From NCBI RefSeq assembly GCF_021249345.1, contig NZ_CP089588.1, forward strand, positions 2,852,001 to 2,916,000: a stretch of DNA of 64,000 bases. The letters run 5' to 3'. Position numbers and translations under genes: made by a program. Under the pieces are notes generated by a model, which had not been told where the DNA came from, ran no database searches, and saw only the letters and a list, made by a program, of their open reading frames with translations. This stretch comes from Halobacterium wangiae (lineage in GTDB: Archaea > Halobacteriota > Halobacteria > Halobacteriales > Halobacteriaceae). Positions within the stretch are counted from its first letter, which is position 1; every line of letters begins with the position of its first letter. Positions 5,818 to 38,984 of this stretch are shown here, in pieces.

Positions 5818-6963
5818 CTACGAGAGGATGCCGACGTCCCGGAGCATCTCGAGTGTCGGCTGTACGTTCGAGAGCTCCTGGAGGTCGATCTCTGGCGGTT
5901 CGAGTTCGTCGATGGTGGGGAGCGGGCCGACCGGTTCGACCTCCGAGATCATCGGGTAGGCGAAGCCGCGCGTGGCGATGAACTCCTGGGCCTCCGCGGA
6001 CAGCAGGTGGCGGACGAACAGGTCCGCGAGGTCCTGGCGGTCCGACCCGCCGAGGACGGACGCGCCGGAGACGTTGACGAGTGCGCCCGCGTCGTTCTTC
6101 GTGAACGCGAGCTCGATGGGTGCGTCGTCGCGGCGCGCGAGCACACGGATGGCGTAGTAGTGGTTCGCGAACCCGGCGCCGATCTCGCCGTTGGCGACGG
6201 ACTCGGAGACGAGGAACTCGTTGTCGTAGCGGGCGACTCCCTGGGTGACCATGTCCTCGAGCCACTGGCGGGTCGTCTCCTCCCCGCGCTGGAGGCGCAT
6301 CGCGGTGACGAACGAGTGGAACGCGCCGTACGTCGGCGCCCACCCCATCGCGCCGGAGAACCGGTCGTCGGTGGCGAAGGTGGCGACGTCGTCGGGGACG
6401 TCCGACTCCGCGAACTGCTCGGTGTTGTACGGAATCGCGCGGGCGCGACCCGCGACGCCGACCCACTGGTCGGTCTTGAACGCGTCGGGGACCGGCGAGC
6501 GGGCCTCCGAGGAGAGTTGCGTCGTGGCGCCGACGTCCGCGACGTAGGCCAGCGACCCGGCGTCGACGGACCAGAACACGTCCGCCGCCCGGACGGTGTC
6601 GTTGGCGTTCTCCTGTTCGATCTGTTTGGCCAGCTGGGAGGAGGGCTGGACGCTCCAGGTCGCCTCGAAGCCGTCGTAGTAGCGGTTGAACAGTTCGAGG
6701 AGGTTCTCGTAGCGGCCGCCCTCGCCGCCGCCGAGGTAGACGTTGAGTTCGCCCTCGAGGTCCGGGAGGTCCTCGATGGAGGTGCCCCCGGGTGCGGGCC
6801 GATCGGAGACGAGCGGCCCCGAGCCCCGGAAGTCGGCGAGGGCCGGTTTCTCGCCGCCACCGTTCCCGCCCAGGAGACCAGTACAGCCCGCGAGACCACT
6901 CGCAGTCACGGCACCGGTCGCCGCGAGGAAGCGGCGACGCGTCCGTCCGAATCCATCGCTCAT
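5818..6963 (-). CDS. Iron(III)-type ABC transporter substrate-binding lipoprotein
   Basis: A 381-residue periplasmic-type binding protein. The N-terminus carries a twin-arginine motif (RTRRRFLAATG), a hydrophobic stretch and a lipobox ending in GLAGC, so it is probably exported folded by Tat and lipid-anchored outside the cell. The mature part resembles FbpA/PotD-type proteins (ELNVYLGGGEGGRYENLLE near residue 72). It is the first gene of the importer operon. The ATG at 6961-6963 follows a TATA-like element at about 6988-6996 at leaderless spacing, with a DtxR-like palindrome between, so iron-dependent repression is likely. Confidence 0.88.
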   Translation of the reverse strand: MSDGFGRTRRRFLAATGAVTASGLAGCTGLLGGNGGGEKPALADFRGSGPLVSDRPAPGGTSIEDLPDLEGELNVYLGGGEGGRYENLLELFNRYYDGFEATWSVQPSSQLAKQIEQENANDTVRAADVFWSVDAGSLAYVADVGATTQLSSEARSPVPDAFKTDQWVGVAGRARAIPYNTEQFAESDVPDDVATFATDDRFSGAMGWAPTYGAFHSFVTAMRLQRGEETTRQWLEDMVTQGVARYDNEFLVSESVANGEIGAGFANHYYAIRVLARRDDAPIELAFTKNDAGALVNVSGASVLGGSDRQDLADLFVRHLLSAEAQEFIATRGFAYPMISEVEPVGPLPTIDELEPPEIDLQELSNVQPTLEMLRDVGILS

Positions 6964-36720: not shown

Positions 36721-37941
36721 GTGCCATCGCTGTACGGACTGGAGCGCTCCGGCGACGTCGAGAAGCTAGTGGAGCTGCTCCGGGAGAGCGAAAAACCGAC
36801 GGTCCGACGCCGAGCAGCCGAAATTCTGGGGAATCTCGACGACCCCGAGTCGGAGGGTATCGACGCGCTTGTCGGTGCGATGAGCGACGACGACGAGACG
36901 GTGCGCGCGGAGGCCATCGACGCGCTCACTCAGCAGGAAGCGGTCGACGCGCTGATGAAGGGCCTCGGACAGGAGATCCCCGATTCCGGTGCGACGTGGG
37001 CGCAGGCGGAGGCGTTCGTCGAGAACCTCACGTCCGGGACGACCGAACTCCGGATGGCGGCGGCGAACGTCCTCGGTCTCCTCGGGGTGGAGGACTCGGC
37101 TCGACCGCTCGCCAAACGGCTGCAGTCCGAACCACACCCCGAGGTCCGGGCGCGCATCGCGCGAGCACTCGGTCGGGTGGGCGAGCCCGCCGTGACGAGC
37201 GTCCTGGTCGAGTGCCTCCACGACCAGCCGCTGAAGGTGCGCCGGGAGGTCGCGGAGTCGCTCGGACGACTCACCACGAAGGACGCGCTCGGTGGGCTCC
37301 TGTCGGTCGTCGACGACGACAGTGAGGCGATGCGAAGGACTGCAGTGAGTTCGCTCGGGCAGTTCGAAAACGCCAAACCCGTCGACGCGCTCGTCGAACG
37401 CCTCGGGGACCAGAGCGACCTGGTGCGACGCGCGGCCGTCTTCTCCCTCATCGAGATCCTCTCGAACGTCCCCCCGGACCGGAGCCACGAACTCCGGGAG
37501 ACGATCGTCGACCGGATGGCCGAGCGCAGCGACCCGAGCGTCGTCGCGTCGCTGATCGAGATCATCGAGGAGGGGACCCAGACCCACCAGCGGCGGAACG
37601 CGACGTGGATGCTGGGTCGCGTCGCAGGAGGGCAGTCGACGAAGCTGGACGCAGTGGAGGCGCTCCGAGCGGTGCTCGGCGAGGACGACGACCTGATCTC
37701 GCAGTTCGCCGCGACCGGTCTCTCCGAGATCGGCGGTCGGTCCGTGGAGACGTCGCTACTGGAGGTCATCGAGACCGACGAGTACGGCGACGACGCCGTC
37801 GCGATGGCGGCGTTCGCGCTCGGGAAGGTCGGCGGTGACCGATCGCGCCAGCGTCTGGAGCGACTCGTCGAGGAGACCGAGAACGACGAGGTTCGGCGGC
37901 GGGCGTTCTCTGCGATCTCGAAACTGGGCGGCCACTCCTAG
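36721..37941 (+). CDS. HEAT-repeat protein linked to CheF (OE2401F-like)
   Basis: A 406-residue all-helical protein built from about ten HEAT/PBS-lyase-type repeats (VRRRAAEILGNLDDPESEGI; VRARIARALGRVGEPAVTSV; VRREVAESLGRLTTKDALGG). It resembles the CpcE-like protein that, in H. salinarum, lies between the archaellins and cheF and interacts with CheF and Che proteins. A scaffold between taxis and archaellum complexes is inferred. The start is GTG 36721. Confidence 0.8.
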   Translation: MPSLYGLERSGDVEKLVELLRESEKPTVRRRAAEILGNLDDPESEGIDALVGAMSDDDETVRAEAIDALTQQEAVDALMKGLGQEIPDSGATWAQAEAFVENLTSGTTELRMAAANVLGLLGVEDSARPLAKRLQSEPHPEVRARIARALGRVGEPAVTSVLVECLHDQPLKVRREVAESLGRLTTKDALGGLLSVVDDDSEAMRRTAVSSLGQFENAKPVDALVERLGDQSDLVRRAAVFSLIEILSNVPPDRSHELRETIVDRMAERSDPSVVASLIEIIEEGTQTHQRRNATWMLGRVAGGQSTKLDAVEALRAVLGEDDDLISQFAATGLSEIGGRSVETSLLEVIETDEYGDDAVAMAAFALGKVGGDRSRQRLERLVEETENDEVRRRAFSAISKLGGHS

Positions 37942-38007
37942 CGGGTGGTGGATAGTCGCGAGGGGGTTTCGGGTGGCGATTTCAGACGCGAGAATCGCAC
38001 GCAAAGC

Positions 38008-38016
38008 ATTAAATAC
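38008..38016 (+). promoter_or_regulatory. TATA element of the leader ORF/cheF unit
   Basis: ATTAAATAC, 25-33 bp before the ATG at 38041. This predicts an mRNA that begins at the ATG of a 25-codon leader ORF, not at cheF itself. Confidence 0.6.
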
Positions 38017-38040
38017 GCCTCCTGAATAGTGTCGTCCGAC

Positions 38041-38118
38041 ATGAGTACGGAGGCGTGGCGTCGGTGCGAGAACGGCGTTGCCGCTACGCGCACAGCCATG
38101 CTCGCAGGTGAGGAATGA
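38041..38118 (+). CDS. Putative 25-residue leader peptide coupled to cheF
   Basis: A short frame opens with ATG 38041, at leaderless distance from a TATA element, and encodes MSTEAWRRCENGV followed by AATRTAMLAGEE. It stops with TGA at 38116-38118, which overlaps the cheF ATG as ATGA. GGTGAGG just before that overlap resembles a ribosome-binding site (anti-SD match GGTGA). This fits translational coupling, but the peptide could also be an incidental reading of the cheF leader. Confidence 0.45.
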   Translation: MSTEAWRRCENGVAATRTAMLAGEE

Positions 38119-38984
38119 GCGAGTCCGAGTACAAAATCGCCGACGGTGCGGGGAAGTTCCTGCAGGCCGTCAAGGACGGCCGGCGGATGAAGGACGCGGC
38201 CTGGACGAACGGCCGCATCCTGCTGTCGAACAAACGCATCGTACTGGCGGGCAACGACGGCAAACGGAACCTCCCGCTGTCGGAGGTCGCCAGCCTGAGC
38301 GGTCGCTACGACGTGAACCAGACGGTCGCACAGGTCAGCGACTACGTGAGCATCCAGATGAACAGCGAGAGCGTGCTGTTGCTCTCGATGGGGGAGAACA
38401 CCGAGGAGTTCGAGGGGAAGCTGTACGGCGCGCTCCTCGACCAGACGGAGATGCTCGTGAAACACCCCGCAGTGAAAGGAGGCGTCGTGCAGGACGAGTC
38501 CTTCGAGCGCGCGCGCATCAAAGTAGACGAGGACCAGTTGAGTGTCGCGATGTCCAACGGCTCGTTCGTTTCCGTGGACCTCGACGACGTGGGATCGGCC
38601 GAAGCGGCCTCCCTCGACGTTGACGGCGAGAAGAGCCCCGTGCTGAAGGTCGAACACACCGTCGACGAGGCGAGCGTGCAGACGTACTTCTCGAGTGACT
38701 CCCACACGTGTTCGATCCTGGAGTCCCTGCTGAGCAAGGAGGCACGGAAGAGCCAGGGGTCGGTCGAACTCTCGGAGACGGAGAAGCGCGTGCTGATGGC
38801 GCTGTACTCGGGGGTGTCGTCGTTCGAGATCCCGGACTTCCTCGGGATGGACGTCGACGAGGTCGAGGGGATCTTCGAGCGACTCGTCGAGGTGGACGTG
38901 CTCGAGGAAGTGCGCAAGCGCCGAGAGGTCTCGATGAAGACTCGCGGCCGGAACATCGCCAGCGAAGCTATCAACGAGGAGTGA
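38115..38984 (+). CDS. cheF1: Archaeal taxis adaptor CheF, first copy
   Basis: A 289-residue protein of the former DUF439 family. The N-terminal half resembles a PH-like beta domain (NGRILLSNKRIVLAGNDGKR; LPLSEVASLSGRYD). The C-terminal half has a winged-helix-like segment (RVLMALYSGVSSFEIPDFLG). CheF binds CheY-P, CheC and the archaellum switch (ArlCE, ArlD) and so carries the taxis signal to the motor. Position and pairing with a second CheF match H. salinarum (recalled). The start ATG overlaps the leader-ORF stop. Confidence 0.88.
   Translation: MSESEYKIADGAGKFLQAVKDGRRMKDAAWTNGRILLSNKRIVLAGNDGKRNLPLSEVASLSGRYDVNQTVAQVSDYVSIQMNSESVLLLSMGENTEEFEGKLYGALLDQTEMLVKHPAVKGGVVQDESFERARIKVDEDQLSVAMSNGSFVSVDLDDVGSAEAASLDVDGEKSPVLKVEHTVDEASVQTYFSSDSHTCSILESLLSKEARKSQGSVELSETEKRVLMALYSGVSSFEIPDFLGMDVDEVEGIFERLVEVDVLEEVRKRREVSMKTRGRNIASEAINEE

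Follow-up and report, generated by a model that had tools for sequence, protein, structure and literature searches.

Organization of the cheF locus

The window, i.e. the whole 64,000-nucleotide stretch of Halobacterium wangiae DNA analyzed here, lies on a 3.11-Mb chromosome contig and contains a HEAT-repeat gene followed, after a gap of 173 nt, by the cheF gene. Judged from the gene order given in PMC2666748, these two genes are the counterparts of OE2401F and OE2402F of Halobacterium salinarum, respectively. CheF connects the archaeal motor with the taxis signalling chain, and switching cannot take place without it (PMC2666748), so that the initiation of CheF translation matters for taxis. 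The features of the locus, all of them on the plus strand, are the following.

36721-37941, plus strand: HEAT-repeat gene, the upstream partner of cheF (Pfam HEAT_2, E 6.8e-55)
37989-38005, plus strand: block CGAGAATCGCACGCAAA adjoining the TATA box, its last letters being the likely BRE (alignment of Halobacterium genomes)
38008-38015, plus strand: TATA box ATTAAATA, at -33 to -26 from the mini-ORF ATG
38025-38028, plus strand: AATA, an A/T element, likely the WW (-10) element (sequence; genome-wide A/T peak at -11/-10)
38038, plus strand: predicted transcription start, 3 nt 5' of the mini-ORF ATG (promoter matrix optimum)
38041-38118, plus strand: mini-ORF of 25 codons plus TGA, the proposed ribosome loader for cheF, leaderless or nearly so
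38106-38113, plus strand: Shine-Dalgarno (SD)-like AGGTGAGG in the mini-ORF tail, 2-9 nt 5' of cheF, a proposed re-initiation aid
38115-38118, plus strand: ATGA, in which the mini-ORF stop overlaps the cheF start codon (sequence; spacing -4 nt)
38115-38984, plus strand: cheF, 289 aa (Pfam CheF-arch, PF04283, E 6.9e-72)

The 25 codons that follow from the ATG at 38041 read MSTEAWRRCENGVAATRTAMLAGEE and end at the TGA at 38116-38118. The first-pass annotation had listed the TATA element, this 25-codon frame, the ATGA overlap and a GGTGAGG stretch before it, and all of them are present, at most 1 base from where it placed them. An N-terminal extension of CheF was ruled out, since the mini-ORF is not read in the frame of cheF and ends at the ATGA.

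Prediction of the promoter and transcription start

Over 864 kb of this genome, A/T content peaks at -30 to -26 and at -11/-10 of the start codons of called genes. A promoter matrix was built for the chromosome from 557 called gene starts, of which the better half served for training. Between 37945 and 38115 it had its optimum at position 38038, with a score of 9.2 (for comparison, 1.7 marks the 99th percentile of 3047 control ATGs); it gave -4.8 exactly at the mini-ORF ATG and -15.7 at the cheF start. In the family, a search of positions -6 to +3 relative to the start codon of the mini-ORF put the best predicted start 2-4 nt 5' of that codon in 17/17 genomes, with scores of 5.2-12.1. Because transcripts were taken as leaderless in a Haloferax study when 0-5 nt separate the 5' end from the start codon (PMC4983044), the mini-ORF transcript is predicted to be leaderless under that definition, though not to start exactly on the ATG. 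The earlier proposal that the mRNA begins at ATG 38041 thus holds for a near-leaderless start but not for its exact position.

The block CGAGAATCGCACGCAAA is kept with few changes in 13 Halobacterium genomes, most of the gap 5' of it being variable. It has no second exact copy in the genome, and 8 matches were found at up to 3 mismatches versus 3 for a reversed control. This block is a candidate regulator site for cheF transcription.

Conservation of the start codon, the register and the overlap

With a match cut-off of 1e-60, cheF was found in 13/13 genomes of the genus and 17/26 genomes of the family, the 9/26 genomes without a match being uninformative; L003-L007, which are duplicates of L017, L022, L024, L025 and L026, were left out of the counts. 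One of these duplicates, DSM 3754 (L007) of the standard laboratory species Halobacterium salinarum, has the mini-ORF, and its upstream sequence is identical to that of L026. An upstream ATG behind a promoter-like site, an open frame and the ATGA at cheF were present in all 17 genomes (13 Halobacterium and 4 other family genomes). Conservation of the frame and of the ATGA across the Halobacteriaceae, which the first-pass annotation had put forward for checking, is thus borne out in 17/17 genomes with a cheF match, and the frame-disrupting changes that it had set against its own reading were observed in 0/17, the sole frameshift pair being self-compensating.

The mini-ORF ATG lies 71, 74 or 101 nt 5' of cheF, giving 24, 25 or 34 codons, so that lengths vary by whole codons; in L028 and L029 a doubled ATG at the mini-ORF start allows 23 or 24 codons. 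The distance from this ATG to cheF is 2 mod 3 in 17/17 genomes, and that from the HEAT stop to the same ATG falls in registers 0, 1 and 2 mod 3 in 4, 10 and 3 species, respectively. For the 13 congeners, a tree with branch lengths fitted to the mini-ORF (2.96 substitutions per site overall) gave a neutral probability of 4.5e-5 that the ATG survives in all tips and, considering substitutions alone, one of 0.053 that the frame stays open, the latter being weak by itself. A promoter or start-site constraint could explain part of the conservation of the ATG but could not account for the kept register. In a single genome, an in-register frame of the mini-ORF length is open in roughly half of the shuffles (compare 70-nt gaps). 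Judged by these sequence comparisons, conservation exceeds chance across species, yet one genome alone shows nothing beyond chance.

Constraint on the encoded peptide

Divergence at the three codon positions of the mini-ORF was 0.43/0.43/0.38, with mean dN of 0.73 and dS of 0.56, over 55 pairs drawn from the 11/13 congeners having the 74-nt frame, L025 being compared ungapped despite part of it being frame-swapped. Removal of L025 and L024 (36 pairs) gave 0.33/0.40/0.31, dN of 0.54 and dS of 0.46. Among the five most closely related species (L017-L021, 10 pairs), dN was 0.19 and dS 0.24, so that dN/dS was about 0.8-1.3 over these sets, with 0.8 for the 10 pairs; the single pair L001/L015 had a dN/dS of 0.6. 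In the same pairs, the divergence of the mini-ORF exceeded or equalled that at third positions of cheF (0.41 vs 0.29, 0.35 vs 0.26, and 0.18 vs 0.18). A divergence of 0.525 computed for the promoter was set aside, as its positions were not aligned. Since dN/dS is below 1 among the closest species, a weak constraint on the peptide may exist. The N-terminus is M-S in 13/13 congeners and most have GE-like ends.

The middle 29 nt of the L025 mini-ORF are 66-86% identical to those of 5 congeners if shifted by one base and 28-34% identical when unshifted, whereas the flanks align unshifted. On this alignment, compensating +1/-1 indels have evidently swapped the frame of about 10 codons in L025 and then restored the register of the junction. 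A conserved micro-peptide was rejected on the divergence and dN/dS figures. The peptide thus seems to be without clear constraint, and selection seems to keep the start, the register and the overlap. A frame and junction kept without clear selection on the product match what is predicted for a ribosome-delivery frame.

SD-like tail and RNA structure of the leader

The mini-ORF tail pairs with the 3' end of the 16S rRNA better than the body does in 16/17 species (mean -8.7 vs -4.9 kcal/mol), although just 3/17 individually reach 0.05 against shuffles of the same mini-ORF. AGGTGAGGA is found exactly in 6/13 Halobacterium species and the remaining 7 have different G-rich tails; AGGTGA is absent from the tail in 7/13 congeners, and the tail of the L030 mini-ORF has no clear SD.

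The leader RNA, folded for the window sequence, was no better than shuffles (z 0.12), and an Rfam search of the leader gave no match near the gathering score, its sole line falling far below the cut-off; a structured leader or known RNA family was rejected on these grounds. Attenuation through repeated codons was likewise rejected, as none were seen by eye in the mini-ORF alignment. The conserved codons, conserved residues and alternative RNA structures that characterize an attenuation or sensing leader were not found here.

The HEAT-cheF junction in other haloarchaea

Outside the Halobacterium family the same gene pair is present and many genera share an ATGA or GTGA at cheF, but there the HEAT gene itself is the upstream partner, whereas in the Halobacterium family this place is taken by a mini-ORF with its own promoter-like site. 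The HEAT gene overlaps or abuts cheF in 42/71 loci of other families and in 5/36 further loci of family f2. The HEAT protein interacts with CheF, and taxis requires both (PMC2666748), which fits an old coupling of the pair.

Where HEAT-cheF gaps are at least 20 nt long, 29/39 were bridged by one mini-ORF, compared with 12.3 expected from shuffles of the same gap length that preserve only single-base content; counted per genus, 10.0/16 were bridged versus 5.1 expected (P about 1e-4). These figures come from 50 chosen loci, of which 7 had no found HEAT end and 4 had gaps shorter than 20 nt; the criterion was framed after the loci had been inspected, for L144 the start of cheF was shifted manually by one codon, and family-f6 loci, with a different upstream gene, were excluded. 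The remaining 10/39 gaps were unbridged, and several family-f2 loci have a promoter-like TATA near cheF and no bridging ORF; several family-f2 cheF genes resemble short-leader genes. In the Halobacterium family the mini-ORF begins at the predicted 5' end, whereas elsewhere the bridging frames begin at the HEAT stop.

Some junctions have particular arrangements. L054 and L099 contain a relay chain, HEAT-ATGA-14 codons-ATGA-cheF, and L061 may hold, by eye, a two-step chain GTGA-6 codons-ATGA-7 codons-GTGA. In genus g12 (L122, L126, L129, L130, L131, L134 and L138), 7/7 gaps have a 19-codon ORF whose start is the HEAT ATGA and whose stop lies 3 nt short of cheF. At L031-L038 (genus g17, Halorussus) an ATG mini-ORF of 20-35 codons ends at the cheF ATGA in 6/8 loci; the upstream gene is other than HEAT (a transducer by eye) and no clear promoter was seen by eye.

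The same layout at other Halobacterium genes

A genome scan for leaderless frames covered 1.664 Mb and 1655 called genes. ATG frames predicted to be leaderless and not themselves in-frame extensions of a gene ended at RTGA in 20/124 cases, versus 7.7% for control triplets (p 0.0014). These triplets behind predicted promoters gave 5268/68027 frames ending at the overlap; they sit 8-39 nt past the predicted start, as against 0-5 nt for the real starts. The scan with both ATG and GTG (35/383 at the overlap, p 0.18) and 400 kb of a second species (4/29, p 0.16) were not significant. In an ortholog control, 2/3 coupled cases were kept, both of them the QPRTase-like pair counted from each side, and 2/17 with other offsets, which are too few cases.

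The follow-up across the genus covered five genes, all hand-picked from the coupled list. For the QPRTase-like gene the layout was present in 13/13 Halobacterium loci (L245-L257), with a predicted leaderless mini-ORF of 9-18 codons that ends in GTGA behind a strong predicted promoter, the gene itself starting with GTG. Outside the genus, 23 homologues were read, taken from 137 genomes with a match; the gene's own ATG lay at most 2 nt from the best predicted transcription start in 17/23, the best predicted start was away from that ATG in 4, and the starts of 2 were not assignable. None of these 23 had a coupled mini-ORF behind a predicted start, and this comparison suggests that in Halobacterium the 5'-end ATG of the QPRTase-like gene shifted out of the gene frame and was relinked through the GTGA. 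One of the 23 homologues, L284, has a 13-codon frame that opens with ATG and ends in an ATGA overlap, but this ATG is located 5' of the TATA-like box.

The layout was also found at gcvP in 11/12 loci examined (L269 was not assignable, and L270 was excluded since its contig begins inside the gene), at a gene of 691 aa in 8/10 examined loci out of 13 fetched, at an amidohydrolase gene in 6/6 genomes with a match (7/13 had none at 1e-60), and at an MMPL transporter gene in 3/5 examined loci out of 14 fetched, the others being more distant matches; of the remaining two MMPL loci, the start of L301 was not assignable and L304 had no such frame. The mini-ORF layout is therefore not unique to cheF. 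Within the window, a predicted leaderless mini-ORF of 16 codons at 6906-6956 on the minus strand has a GTGA overlap with the gene at 5818-6909 (promoter score 5.1).

A proposed ribosome-loading leader cistron for cheF

We propose that the mini-ORF is a ribosome-loading leader cistron for cheF, a reading to which we assign a probability of about three in four. From the architecture described above, its conservation and the lack of clear constraint on the peptide, we infer the transcript start, the translation of the mini-ORF and the hand-over to cheF as follows. Transcription would begin 2-4 nt 5' of the mini-ORF ATG, as the promoter fit suggests, and ribosomes would probably initiate at this 5'-end ATG through the leaderless route that is dominant in haloarchaea. 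They would then translate about 25 codons whose identity is seemingly irrelevant, terminate at the TGA within the ATGA and, moving back by one base, re-initiate on the start codon of cheF, with AGGTGAGG helping. This last step is suggested by the geometry, the SD-like tails and the published Haloferax reporter work. The mini-ORF would mainly supply ribosomes to a start that has no promoter at leaderless distance and for which an SD alone may not serve. In the Halobacterium family, the coupling role of the long HEAT gene appears to have passed to this short cistron, which has a promoter of its own.

Published data on Haloferax give footing to this mechanism. Termination-reinitiation was strict in 9/9 overlapping gene pairs tested (PMC6728339), and SD motifs were used in re-initiation but did not support initiation de novo (PMC6728339, PMC7531240). 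Coupling fell by roughly half at a spacing of 13-14 nt and to near zero at 22-23 nt (PMC10666635), and the stop-start spacing of -4 nt at cheF is inside the range for haloarchaeal termination-reinitiation, -8 to about +10 nt, given in the same work. In E. coli, the final 15 nt of the upstream gene suffice for coupling (PMC10666635). According to the Haloferax coupling data, one would expect a 5'-end ATG with a -4 nt junction to work for cheF, but not a bare leader of 77 nt that carries an SD.

The latter arrangement would be an ordinary leadered mRNA, with a 5' leader of about 77 nt, ribosomes recruited by the SD near cheF and an open frame that is incidental. The position of AGGTGAGG 2-9 nt 5' of cheF, the P of 0.053 given by frame openness alone and the short-leadered appearance of several family-f2 cheF genes are in agreement with it; nevertheless, it leaves unexplained the kept ATG (P 4.5e-5), the register in 17/17 genomes and the compensated frameshift of L025, and it does not fit the Haloferax SD motifs that were not functional de novo (PMC6728339, PMC7531240), so that we regard it as unlikely. 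A frame that merely happened to end at cheF would not be rare in one genome, given that about 8% of the control triplets (5268/68027) yield overlap-ending frames, but with the frame kept in 17/17 genomes and length changes of whole codons, pure chance is scarcely credible.

Leader cistrons in other systems do sense signals and switch downstream genes, and the mini-ORF might accordingly be a regulatory leader whose translation senses a signal, be it by codon-specific stalling, by RNA structure or by means of a factor, and switches CheF. Candidate cysteine uORFs have been described in mycobacteria (PMC4633059), and the conserved promoter block CGAGAATCGCACGCAAA hints at regulated transcription; a sensing role is nonetheless quite improbable for a leader that has no conserved pattern of codons or residues, a fold z of 0.12 and no Rfam match near the gathering score. 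The control layer for taxis that the first-pass annotation had proposed goes beyond the evidence: an unconstrained peptide in a leader that has no notable RNA structure speaks for simple delivery of ribosomes. That the mini-ORF codes for a functional micro-peptide co-expressed with CheF is very improbable in spite of a translated-looking start, the M-S N-terminus in 13/13 congeners, the GE-like ends of most and a dN/dS slightly below 1 in the closest species, because overall dN is similar to or higher than dS, all codon positions evolve alike, about 10 codons are frame-swapped in L025, and the 24-34 codons have no conserved core, the conserved ends being the start context and the SD.

Beyond the proposed ribosome-loading cistron of cheF, leaderless cistrons that load ribosomes and are themselves disposable may form a general class in haloarchaea, i.e. 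frames of 9-35 codons with an RTGA hand-over and an unselected peptide, a generalization that we favour only tentatively and at somewhat less than even odds. Given that de novo recruitment of ribosomes does not occur at internal SD sites, starts away from the 5' end would be served by such loader frames, which might originate from the displacement of a long coupled cistron, as at cheF, or from the slippage of a leaderless ATG out of the gene frame, as at the QPRTase-like gene. If true, this class would explain some of the translation of leadered haloarchaeal mRNAs that has so far had no explanation. Loader frames offer a testable answer to how haloarchaeal genes with a start away from the mRNA end are translated, and they may be overlooked when haloarchaeal 5' leaders are annotated or mutagenized.

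Comparison with known systems

Gene pairs of Haloferax volcanii (Huber et al. 2019, PMC6728339; 2023, PMC10666635) share with cheF the short overlap, an SD within the upstream frame and a haloarchaeal host, but their upstream cistron is a normal gene, whereas that of cheF is a 25-codon frame that stands at the predicted 5' end of its own transcript and has no clearly conserved product. The 16 Haloferax uORFs of 15-31 aa (Babski et al. 2016, PMC4983044) are also mini-ORFs 5' of normal genes; they lie, however, in long leaders of 150-250 nt, and no overlap or coupling is stated for them in the text available to us. The delivery of ribosomes by short ORFs is stated as an idea in a 2025 review (PMC12548453), and the accessible part of a 2025 Haloferax ribosome profiling study (PMC12482152) makes no mention of uORFs. 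In the literature found, which left subscription papers mostly uncovered, there was neither a coupled leaderless frame of this kind in archaea nor a leader ORF at cheF. The first-pass annotation had regarded the control layer as undescribed; the coupled leaderless kind as such is known from mycobacteria (PMC4633059), and its archaeal occurrence is apparently not described in the literature found.

In mycobacteria (Shell et al. 2015, PMC4633059), leaderless small ORFs likewise overlap an annotated gene through RTGA, 23/220 of them being coupled in this way versus 32/1000 random sites; the work includes an example whose linkage is kept while the peptide has diverged, and it discusses ribosome delivery. 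Compared with these small ORFs of 5-50 codons that begin with RTG at the 5' end and whose stop shares RTGA with the next gene start, the cheF mini-ORF begins with ATG in 17/17 genomes, with the 5' end predicted 2-4 nt upstream, its stop lies in an ATGA in 17/17, and its linkage is kept while its peptide is not. The mycobacterial cases rest on mapped transcripts (PMC4633059), whereas the 5' end at cheF is predicted. The mini-ORF of cheF differs in turn from the mycobacterial ones in belonging to an archaeon and a chemotaxis gene, in its family-wide comparison and compensating frameshift, and in standing at the place that a coupled long gene occupies in its relatives. It is a clear evolutionary case in which selection appears to keep the act of translating and not the product.
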